Shown one piece after another: positions 1,257-39,153 of a stretch of DNA of 64,000 bases. The notes under the pieces were generated by a model, which did no database searches, had not been told where the DNA came from, and saw nothing but the letters and a program-made list of their open reading frames with translations. The DNA lies in contig NZ_CP066776.1 in the NCBI RefSeq assembly GCF_010681825.2, positions 930,001 through 994,000 of the forward strand. The letters are read 5' to 3'. The stretch comes from Sulfuriroseicoccus oceanibius. Lineage in GTDB: Bacteria > Verrucomicrobiota > Verrucomicrobiia > Verrucomicrobiales > SLCJ01. A program made the position numbers and the translations under genes. Numbering within the stretch: the first letter of the stretch is position 1; every line of letters begins with the position of its first letter.

Positions 1257-1727
1257 ATGAACTACCATCGCTATATCGACGTGGATGTGGTCAATGGACC
1301 GGGCACCCGCTGCACGCTATATGTGGCGGGGTGCGAGCATCATTGCCCCGGGTGCTATAACGCATCGACGTGGCCATTGAACTCGGGGCATCCGTTTTGT
1401 GATGCGTTGGCGGATCAGATTGTGGCGGACTTGAACGACACGCGGATCCGTCGGCGTGGGTTGTCGCTGACGGGGGGCGATCCGTTGCATCCGGAGAATG
1501 TGCCGGAGGTGTTGAAGCTGGTGCGGAGGGTGCGTGCAGAGTGTCCGGGCAAGGATGTTTGGATGTGGACGGGATACACGTTTGAGGCGTTGACTTCGGC
1601 GCAGCGTGAGCTGGCTCAGATGGTGGATGTGCTGGTGGATGGTCGTTTTGTCCAGGAGCTGGCGGATCCTGAGTTGTTGTTCCGTGGGTCGTCTAACCAG
1701 CGGCTGATCGAGGTGGGGAAGGTGTGA
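1257..1727 (+). CDS. nrdG: Anaerobic ribonucleoside-triphosphate reductase activating protein (radical SAM)
   Basis: This 156-residue radical SAM enzyme cleaves S-adenosylmethionine to generate the glycyl radical on NrdD. The [4Fe-4S] ligands are the C-x3-C-x2-C motif C26-E-H-H-C30-P-G-C33, followed by a G-G-D-P SAM-binding motif (S-L-T-G-G-D-P). The ATG at 1257 gives an N-terminus M-N-Y-H-R-Y that matches the enterobacterial NrdG start closely. An in-frame TTG at 1248 would add only three residues and is less likely. It lies downstream of nrdD on the same strand and is almost certainly co-expressed with it. Length is typical for the family. Confidence 0.95.
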   Translation: MNYHRYIDVDVVNGPGTRCTLYVAGCEHHCPGCYNASTWPLNSGHPFCDALADQIVADLNDTRIRRRGLSLTGGDPLHPENVPEVLKLVRRVRAECPGKDVWMWTGYTFEALTSAQRELAQMVDVLVDGRFVQELADPELLFRGSSNQRLIEVGKV

Positions 1728-1766: not shown

Positions 1767-2215
1767 CAACGACAGGAGTGTCGTTGGTCCATCGGGGAAT
1801 GGTGGAGTGACGGGCTGTGATGGAGTGACCACACTCCTGTGGTCGAGGAGAGGCGAGTGAGGACGGAGTGATCTTGGACATACGGAGCTGTCGGGCAACG
1901 ACAGGAGTGTCGTTGGTCCATCGGGGAATTGTGGAGTGACGGGCTGCGATGGAGCCACCACACTCCTGTGGTCGAGGAGAGGCGAGTGAGGACGGAGTGA
2001 TCTTGGACATACGGAGCTGTTGGGCAACGACAGAAGTGTCGTTGGTCCATCGGGGAATGGTGGAGTGACGGGCTGCGATGGAGTGACCACACTCCTGTGG
2101 TCGAGGAGAGGCGAGTGAGGACGGAGTGATCTTGGACATGCGGAGCTGTCGGGCAACGACAGGAGTGCCGTTGGTCCAGCGGGGAATGGTGGGGTGACGG
2201 GCTGCGATGGAGCAG
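1767..2215. repeat. 129-bp tandem repeat array, three full units plus a partial fourth
   Basis: Units begin at 1767, 1896, 2025 and 2154, an exact 129-bp period with few substitutions; the fourth is cut after about 60 bp. Each full unit carries two perfect or near-perfect hairpins. The first is CAACGACA-GGAG-TGTCGTTG (for example 1896-1915). The second is GACCACA-CTCC-TGTGGTC (for example 1827-1844). The two loops, GGAG and CTCC, are complementary, and with the flanking ACA/TGT the complementarity covers 10 nt. All three minus-strand frames stay open across the array because the period is a multiple of three, but no credible protein is encoded. The whole 1728-2285 gap between nrdG and the SGNH hydrolase holds nothing else recognisable. 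Confidence 0.9.
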
Positions 2216-2285
2216 GGGTACTCTGCTGAGGCGTGAGGTGGACGCTGTCGCTTCGCGCTTGCTTTGTCGGGCGGATTGGCGCGTG

Positions 2286-3083
2286 ATGCTGGGCATGCAT
2301 TGGATTGCGACAGTTGTGGTCGGCGTGTTGCTGATGGTTGGAACGGTGGTAGCAGGTCCGGCGGAGGACGTGCGTGCGCGGGTGAAGCAGGAGGGTGCTG
2401 GGTTGAAGGTGTTGTTTGTCGGCAATAGCTACAGCTTTGAGGTTCCGAAGGCGTTCGCCAGGGTAGCCAAACGAGAGGGGCATGGGCTGGAGGTGAGTCA
2501 GGTGACCAAGGGTGGGCAGCGGTTGAGCGGCCATGCGGCGGATGAGAATCTGAAGCAGCAGATTGCGGAGGGCGGATGGGATGTGGTGGTGCTGCAGGAA
2601 CAAAGCCAACTGCCTTCGTTTCCGGCGGGGCAGGTGGATGCCCAGTGCGTGCCGGCGGTGCGGCAATTGGTGGCGACGATCCGCGATGCAGGGGCGGTGC
2701 CGGTTTTGTTCCAGACCTGGGGGCGGCGGGATGGAGACCGCCAGAACCGGGGCGATGATGATTTTCTCAAGATGAACCAACGTCTGGCCGCGGGGTATGC
2801 CCGCATGGCGGCATCGGTGGACCCGGCGCTTTACGTCGTGCCGGTTGGCGATGCGTGGGCTGCGGTGATGGCGGGTGGCAATGGCGGCGCACTCTATCAG
2901 CGGGATGGGAGCCATCCGTCCATGGCGGGTGTGGAGTTGGCGGCTGCGACCATTTATGCCGCGCTCTATTATGACAAACCGGAGGCGGGATCGCTTTCGC
3001 AGACCGAGGGTGTGGACCGGCAACGTTTGATTGACGCGGTAAGCCAGGCCATGCGCCAACAGGGGCAGGCCGCCAAGCAGTGA
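2286..3083 (+). CDS. Secreted SGNH/GDSL-type hydrolase (DUF4886-like)
   Basis: This 265-residue protein has an N-terminal hydrophobic signal peptide (about residues 5-23), so it is probably exported. Block I is V-G-N-S-Y-S with the likely nucleophile Ser48. A Q-E-Q-S segment sits in the middle. The C-terminal D-G-S-H-P-S block supplies Asp207 and His210. This arrangement is that of SGNH esterases and lipases of the DUF4886 type, which often act on acylated carbohydrates; the substrate here is unknown. I prefer the ATG at 2286 because it places the signal peptide at the N-terminus. A GTG at 2238 lies in frame upstream. The LysR gene follows after 6 bp on the same strand. Confidence 0.8.
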   Translation: MLGMHWIATVVVGVLLMVGTVVAGPAEDVRARVKQEGAGLKVLFVGNSYSFEVPKAFARVAKREGHGLEVSQVTKGGQRLSGHAADENLKQQIAEGGWDVVVLQEQSQLPSFPAGQVDAQCVPAVRQLVATIRDAGAVPVLFQTWGRRDGDRQNRGDDDFLKMNQRLAAGYARMAASVDPALYVVPVGDAWAAVMAGGNGGALYQRDGSHPSMAGVELAAATIYAALYYDKPEAGSLSQTEGVDRQRLIDAVSQAMRQQGQAAKQ

Positions 3084-3970: not shown

Positions 3971-4060
3971 TAAACCGTCCCTGCGGGACGCGAATCGGTT
4001 CGCGTCATTCCCCGGAGGTTGAAACCTCCGGCCAACTAGTAACGCGTCGCTGCACGACGG
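3971..4060 (+). repeat. Compound hairpin repeat, family A, copy 1
   Basis: This copy is between convergent lysR and metH. It contains three stem-loops: CGTCCC-TGC-GGGACG (3976-3990), CCGGAGGTT-GA-AACCTCCGG (4012-4031), and CGTCG-CTGCA-CGACG near 4046-4060. The same ordered set of hairpins occurs at 8814-8896, 34670-34761, 34897-34995 and 39007-39153. It lies where two genes converge and could act as a bidirectional end-of-transcript structure, but no T-tract is present. Confidence 0.85.
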
Positions 4061-27683: not shown

Positions 27684-27931
27684 GCCCCTGCAGGGCTCCA
27701 TCGCTTAATCCGCCAATCCCCACGGCGTTGCCGTGGGCTGTGTTAGTCCGCACCTCCGGTGCTCTCTCTCGTCCAGTCCCCATCACCCCGCGGCTCCACG
27801 CTCGTCCTACGTCATCGAATGCCCCCCAGCCCACGTACTCGGATCCCACCCAGCGCCGGAGGCGCGCCCCAACATAGCCCATGGCGAAGCCATGGGATCA
27901 CGCCCGCCCCCACATCGAGCCCTGCAAGGGC
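27684..27931. repeat. Cluster of six short triloop hairpins
   Basis: Short palindromes occur in succession: GCCCCTGCAGGGC (27684-27696), CCCACGGC-GTT-GCCGTGGG (27719-27737), GCACC-TCC-GGTGC (27750-27762), GCGCC-GGA-GGCGC (27853-27865), CCCATGGC-GAA-GCCATGGG (27878-27896) and GCCCT-GCA-AGGGC (27919-27931). All but the first have clear three-base loops. No coding gene covers them; the open frames here have no protein-like composition. The region from 27514 to 27683 shows no other clear structure. Confidence 0.75.
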
Positions 27932-34669: not shown

Positions 34670-34761
34670 GAAACCGTCCCTCCGAGACGCCTCATTCACG
34701 CGCTCACCTCCGGAGGTTGAAACCTCCGGCTAACCGGTAACCTGTCGCTTCGCGACGAATT
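34670..34761 (+). repeat. Compound hairpin repeat, family A, copy 3
   Basis: The elements in order are CGTCCC-TCC-GAGACG (34675-34689), CCGGAGGTT-GA-AACCTCCGG (34710-34729), CTAACCGGTAACCT, and GTCGC-TTC-GCGAC (34744-34756), then GAATTCGATG. Copies 3 and 4 are direct repeats about 228 bp apart. Confidence 0.88.
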
Positions 34762-39006: not shown

Positions 39007-39153
39007 GTAAACCGTCCCTACGGGATGCCTCATTCGTGCGCTCATCTCCGGAGGTTGAAACCTCCGGCTAGCCGGGAACCTGTCGCTTTGCGACGATCCC
39101 GGTTACTCGAAGTTTCCGGCTGCCGACCAAAGTCGTCGTTGCGGCAGCCCGAT
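39007..39153 (+). repeat. Compound hairpin repeat, family A, copy 5
   Basis: The elements are CGTCCC-TAC-GGGATG (39013-39027), CCGGAGGTT-GA-AACCTCCGG (39048-39067), CTAGCCGGGAACCT and GTCGC-TTT-GCGAC (39082-39094). A further stretch, AAAGTCGTCGTTGC (about 39129), repeats the tail of copy 4; here it lies inside the palindrome GGCTGCC...GGCAGCC (39119-39148). This is the longest copy. It sits in the pseudopilin-queD convergent spacer (38861-39190), which contains no gene. Confidence 0.88.

Follow-up and report, generated by a model that had tools for sequence, protein, structure and literature searches.

REP doublets, tandem clusters that include flanking sequence, and the linkage of REPs to genes for REP-associated tyrosine transposases (RAYTs) are already known (PMC3116915; PMC6006769; PMC8266576; PMC3733652). 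In Pseudomonas fluorescens SBW25, ordered tandem REPIN clusters include their flanks, and some lie next to RAYTs (PMC3116915). The reported REP tag is GT[AG]G, the exceptions being CGTC and CnGA (PMC3116915; PMC6006769; PMC8266576; PMC3733652). The subject of this study is a 129-bp tandem array in the window (the whole 64-kb stretch of Sulfuriroseicoccus oceanibius DNA that was analysed). We conclude, with a probability of about 0.8, that the array is a REP cluster of the BIME/REPIN type that was spread by RAYT-type transposition of single-stranded DNA and then tandemly amplified.

The array and its family resemble the SBW25 REPINs in having intergenic inverted REP doublets, covarying palindromes, flank-including tandem arrays, and clusters adjacent to a RAYT; they differ in carrying a GGAG or GGAC tag in place of GT[AG]G, in having the tags inside a doublet of constant spacing, and in clustering at the GC-skew minimum (PMC3116915). 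With the E. coli BIMEs and the TnpA-REP REPtron (PDB 4er8; PMC8266576) they share alternating inverted REPs, two REP subtypes, and a Y1/HUH gene enclosed by REPs. Unlike those elements, they have perfect stems of 7–8 bp, a 4-nt YTCC loop and no bulge, and the RAYT, unlike E. coli TnpA-REP, is about 200 aa long with a longer N-terminal part and has HVR in the local copy. The GTAG-20 repeats of Opitutus terrae (PMC3733652) are a REP family from the same phylum, set apart from the present one by their described tag, which is GTAG/GTGG rather than GGAG. CGTC-tagged REPs and the CnGA hairpins of class 3 TnpA-Y1 are also REP-like palindromes with non-GTAG tags; however, the CGTC REPs are reportedly without a dedicated transposase, whereas the GGAG family has one (PMC3733652; PMC6006769). 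The GGAG tag was not found in the main texts of PMC6006769, PMC3733652, PMC8266576 and PMC3686654, and a literature search for GGAG with REP terms found no paper. Because the tag is GGAG instead of GT[AG]G, the family was filed as a GGAG-tagged variant and not as a canonical REP member, by comparison with the tags given in main texts.

The tandem repeat occupies positions 1767–2213 and has a 129-bp period, 3.5 copies, 94% matches and no indels (TRF). Unit 1 (1767–1895), unit 2 (1896–2024; 97% identical to the query unit by BLAST) and unit 3 (2025–2153; 98%) are read on the plus strand, as is partial unit 4 (2154–2213), a 59-nt BLAST match consisting of one hairpin and the inner spacer. Partial unit 4 stops exactly at GATGGAGC (2206–2213), where the second hairpin would start, and other truncated copies, at L032 (762447) and L027 (504741), share this end point. 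A preliminary description of this DNA had reported three full units and a partial fourth with an exact 129-bp period in a gene-free spacer, and the TRF result and gene call agree with it.

Two hairpins, HP1 and HP2, recur in the array. HP1 is a minus-strand REP hairpin; in unit 1 (1767–1786) the minus-strand reading is GATGGAC followed by CAACGACA-CTCC-TGTCGTTG, and the plus-strand form, CAACGACA-GGAG-TGTCGTTG, pairs perfectly in units 1 and 2 (1896–1915). HP1 of unit 3 (2025–2044) has the loop GAAG, and that of partial unit 4 (2154–2173) contains one mismatched pair, GTGCCGTTG. HP2 is on the plus strand and in unit 1 (1827–1844) reads GATGGAGT followed by GACCACA-CTCC-TGTGGTC. It is fully paired in units 1 and 3 (2085–2102), has a mismatched outermost pair in unit 2 (1956–1973), where its first arm reads CACCACA, and is absent from unit 4. 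Between them lies the inner spacer (1788–1824 in unit 1, plus strand), which contains an inverted repeat, TCCATCG (1788–1794) and a CGATGGA-type sequence (1818–1824), and bears the GGA[G/C] tag of each REP. The preliminary description had correctly noted the GAAG loop and the broken arm of unit 4, as well as the extension of loop complementarity to 10 nt (ACAGGAGTGT is the exact reverse complement of ACACTCCTGT). Its placement of a GGAG and a CTCC hairpin in every unit holds for the full units apart from the GAAG loop, but it overlooked the HP2 mismatch in unit 2, and unit 4 has no HP2.

The upstream neighbour is a gene for an NrdG-like radical-SAM activase (nrdG, 1257–1727, plus strand; Pfam Fer4_12, E 3.5e-54), and the downstream neighbour encodes an SGNH/DUF4886-like protein (about 2283–3083, plus strand; Pfam and codon-usage gene call). 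The codon-usage gene call placed no gene over the array. Two long minus-strand ORFs (148 and 219 aa) cross it; neither had a Pfam match above cut-off and the codon model was negative, and a protein-coding array was rejected.

A genome search for the unit and its hairpins, as the preliminary description had proposed, identified a dispersed family. The 129-nt unit had 47 BLAST matches in the 3.5-Mb genome; the exact HP1 pattern occurred 45 times and the HP2 pattern, with up to one mismatch, 52 times, the reversed-pattern control giving none in either case. Because 5 of the window's 29 hairpins (at least 7 bp, loop 3–6) fall within the array's 450 bp and HP1 occurs 45 times against none for its control, the array hairpins are not a product of chance. 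HP1 and HP2 occur mostly as doublets within tandem arrays, with a gap of 38–41 nt in nearly all doublets and variable outer gaps. Matches to the full 129 nt were confined to the window and to positions 539003–539389; the other loci retain a 79-nt core (HP1-39-HP2) with a different outer spacer, and their array periods range from 129 to about 393 bp with locus-specific spacers. The short-spaced HP1-HP2 doublet is divergent, with the tags inside, and convergent HP2-HP1 pairs are present within arrays, spaced at 50–52 nt in the window. The tag at the hairpin foot in this genome is GGAG or GGAC, not GT[AG]G. In longer arrays a third palindrome, GACGGCA-TTCC-TGCCGTC, alternates with HP1 and HP2, and at some loci HP2 is wholly replaced by another palindrome, CTATCCCGCGGCCGCGGGATAG. 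All 134 REP hairpins in the genome stretches examined were outside genes predicted by the codon model. No DNA-level match to the unit was found among 27 related genomes. An empty-site comparison at nrdG found no orthologue of this locus in the congener, only weak matches of 30–38%.

Several other repeats were met in these searches. The spacers of longer arrays (L022, L025, L028, L032 and L033) contain common dispersed modules (GGGATCTTTGGGTCTTTGCGTGAG, AATCCTGTAATCTGCGGAAA and GGATAGGGATAAAGATAA) and constitute larger mosaic intergenic repeats. A repeated palindrome, CCGGAGGTTGAAACCTCCGG, occurs in the window at 4012–4031, 34710–34729 and 39048–39067, with the further palindromes GACGCGAATCGGTTCGCGTC and CCTGGGACTTTGTCCCAGG near some copies, and makes up another REP-like family of this stretch. 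Two inverted matches to the Rfam 'sRNA' Acido-Lenti-1 lie at window positions 27719–27763 (plus strand) and 27852–27896 (minus strand). Genome-wide there were 39 such matches at E ≤ 0.001; three inverted pairs share the same 133-bp offset, and four matches surround an IS200/IS605-type TnpA gene near 3492.5 kb. Instead of an sRNA, Acido-Lenti-1 may represent a mobile hairpin element of single-stranded DNA. At L010 (719–1553), short tandem repeats, whose protein-level units include CGVWRVA and WDVGRGT, form a long stretch that is open in several frames and directly adjoins an IS200-type transposase gene.

The only other array of the window's 129-bp unit, that at 539003–539389, directly precedes a RAYT gene (genome positions 539523–540122), an intact 200-aa ORF, and one more copy follows the gene at 540154. 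The ORF matched NCBIfam REP_Tyr_transpos (NF047646; E 1.4e-11), although the match falls short of the curated cut-off. With a profile of the RAYT family the top PDB match was 4er8 (TnpA-REP; E 1.2e-9), and 4er8, a RAYT bound to a REP hairpin, also ranked first with the AF2 model (pLDDT 89.8; TM 0.46/0.56). As part of the REP/RAYT explanation as a whole, this protein is very probably the cognate transposase of the window repeat family. Its frame is open, and the catalytic tyrosine (Y175), W154 and the NP motif are conserved; however, the HUH site reads NHVRVL (H-V-R), whereas HxH was present in 80 of 80 homologues examined. Because HVR replaces HxH, and HUH enzymes use the second histidine to bind metal (PMC8266576), the protein is probably now catalytically inactive, judging from its sequence. 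Two further RAYT-like genes are present in the genome. Of these, the gene at 3.235 Mb shares 48% identity with the 539-kb RAYT and is accompanied by hairpins of its own, GGAGTGACGGTG-TCCT-CACCGTC; this second RAYT (L013, about 3.2342–3.2369 Mb) has an intact HVH and a separate flanking REP family in which GGAGTGACGGTGTCCTCACCGTC pairs with GTCGACGGGGACGTCGAACCTCC.

A scan of 84,980 genomes for RAYT homologues yielded 80 loci, mainly in Verrucomicrobiota. With few exceptions, the loci of at least 45% identity have on their flanks hairpin pairs arranged as AAGGAG-palindrome (YTCC loop)-spacer-palindrome (GGAR loop)-CTCCTT, the shared plan being a GGAG tag, a palindrome with a CA-YTCC-TG apex, and an inverted partner. 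When the tag was not presupposed, GGAG was the tetranucleotide that most loci had in common at hairpin feet, with 34 of 36 such loci carrying it. Over all 80 loci, the density of GGAG hairpins was 4.05 per kb within 300 bp of the RAYT versus 0.07 per kb beyond 900 bp, a 58-fold difference. Two loci (L063 and L046) have palindromes nearly identical to HP2 and HP1, and the congener's RAYT, with an intact HVH, has GATGGAG/GACGGAG hairpins with different stems. These results support assigning the window hairpins to the REPs of this RAYT clade. The flanking pairs of relatives are mostly convergent, with the tags outside, unlike the short-spaced divergent HP1-HP2 of this genome, so that either arrangement may be the true mobile unit.

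A rival reading takes the array for a structured RNA, or for an element at the 3' end of an mRNA, whose HP1 and HP2 would kiss or rearrange into one long alternative stem to regulate nrdDG or its neighbour. The array begins 39 nt past the nrdG stop and shares the strand of that gene, the gene upstream is co-oriented with the repeat in 21 of 30 loci, and RNA folding of three units forms a long-range ACAGGAGUGU/ACACUCCUGU pairing (z −3.8). Covariation was examined in 33 distinct doublets in comparison with shuffles. The stems were paired at 99.6% (HP1) and 97% (HP2) and contained 30 double-change cells versus 8.8 in the shuffles, but the loop-loop pairs had no compensatory changes (0.7 in the shuffles) and the 10-nt long-range stem had no double changes. 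The kissing or alternative RNA stems raised in the preliminary description were rejected for want of such covariation. The inner TCCATCG/CGATGGA repeat was likewise rejected as a selected stem (no double changes, 90.5% paired) and is probably tag sequence. Covariation of the stems with invariant loop pairing implies that selection or copying maintains the local palindromes, and the loops are complementary because one non-palindromic REP apex, CAGGAGTG, occurs in both orientations. The Rfam search of the window had no match at the array, the copies adjoin unrelated genes in every gene context, and the same hairpin architecture stands beside RAYT genes across the phylum; we consider an RNA element very unlikely. 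The protein-binding DNA cruciforms raised as the other possibility pointed in the right direction, in that the structure would be a REP doublet with a RAYT as its plausible binder.

The chance that the array is a neutral satellite produced by slippage alone and unrelated to transposases appears negligible. Locus-specific spacers and periods do indicate local amplification, but the same doublet with constant spacing at about 35 dispersed loci and the covarying stems already contradict slippage alone, and the linkage to RAYTs is strong. The preliminary description had allowed for an expanded neutral repeat; the units are indeed absent from the 27 related genomes, yet because the stems show compensatory changes the array is not merely that. 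A further alternative, which we regard as very unlikely, is that the REP array now persists because it serves the host (by stabilising mRNA 3' ends, attenuating transcription, or nucleoid binding close to the origin), with the RAYT as a domesticated binder. The open RAYT frame, with Y175, W154 and the NP motif conserved and the HUH changed, and the clustering of copies at the skew minimum are consistent with it, but insertion preference may account for the clustering. Also very unlikely is a compound proposal, in which Verrucomicrobiota have a distinct GGAG-tagged REP/RAYT subclass and the RAYT of this species, nuclease-dead, is kept as a hairpin binder at origin-side REP clusters.

Sign changes of the GC skew fall at about 490 kb (the minimum) and about 2.24 Mb. 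The gene dnaA is at contig position 7, and the likely origin is placed at the minimum from the skew only. Of 35 independent loci, 26 are in the chromosome quarter nearest 490 kb (p 1.3e-9), and in 26 of 35 as well the HP1-to-HP2 orientation follows the skew (p 0.006; outside 60 kb, Fisher p 0.002). Gene orientation is a partial confounder of this bias but not its whole explanation, because genes on the left arm are unbiased by strand (27 versus 26) and most repeat loci there are on the minus strand. A replication-linked orientation is expected from fork-linked transposition of single-stranded DNA of the IS200/IS605 kind.

In the REP/RAYT mechanism that we favour, each hairpin would be one REP, consisting of a GGAG (or GGAC) tag and then a palindrome with the apex CA-CTCC-TG, and HP1 and HP2 would be two related REPs inverted to each other. 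Palindromes would fold where the replication fork exposes single-stranded DNA; the RAYT, a HUH/Y1 nuclease, would recognise tag and hairpin, cut, and move the doublet to another intergenic site. Recombination or slippage would then amplify doublet plus flank in tandem, and the 129-bp array would be one of the products. The family was probably spread as single-stranded DNA by the RAYT in this way, mobility and cutting being the inferred steps, and would now be mostly immobile, for one HUH histidine is missing from the local RAYT. If the 539-kb RAYT is inactive, as is probable, the window array would be a relic whose length could still change by recombination.

These findings account for an otherwise puzzling repeat and are a warning that complementary loops of hairpins in inverted repeats need not signify an RNA switch. 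They would add to the known RAYTs a GGAG-tagged branch common in Verrucomicrobiota. Copies that are clustered at the origin and oriented with replication, beside a transposase that is probably inactivated, could help in testing for how long REP populations outlast their transposase.
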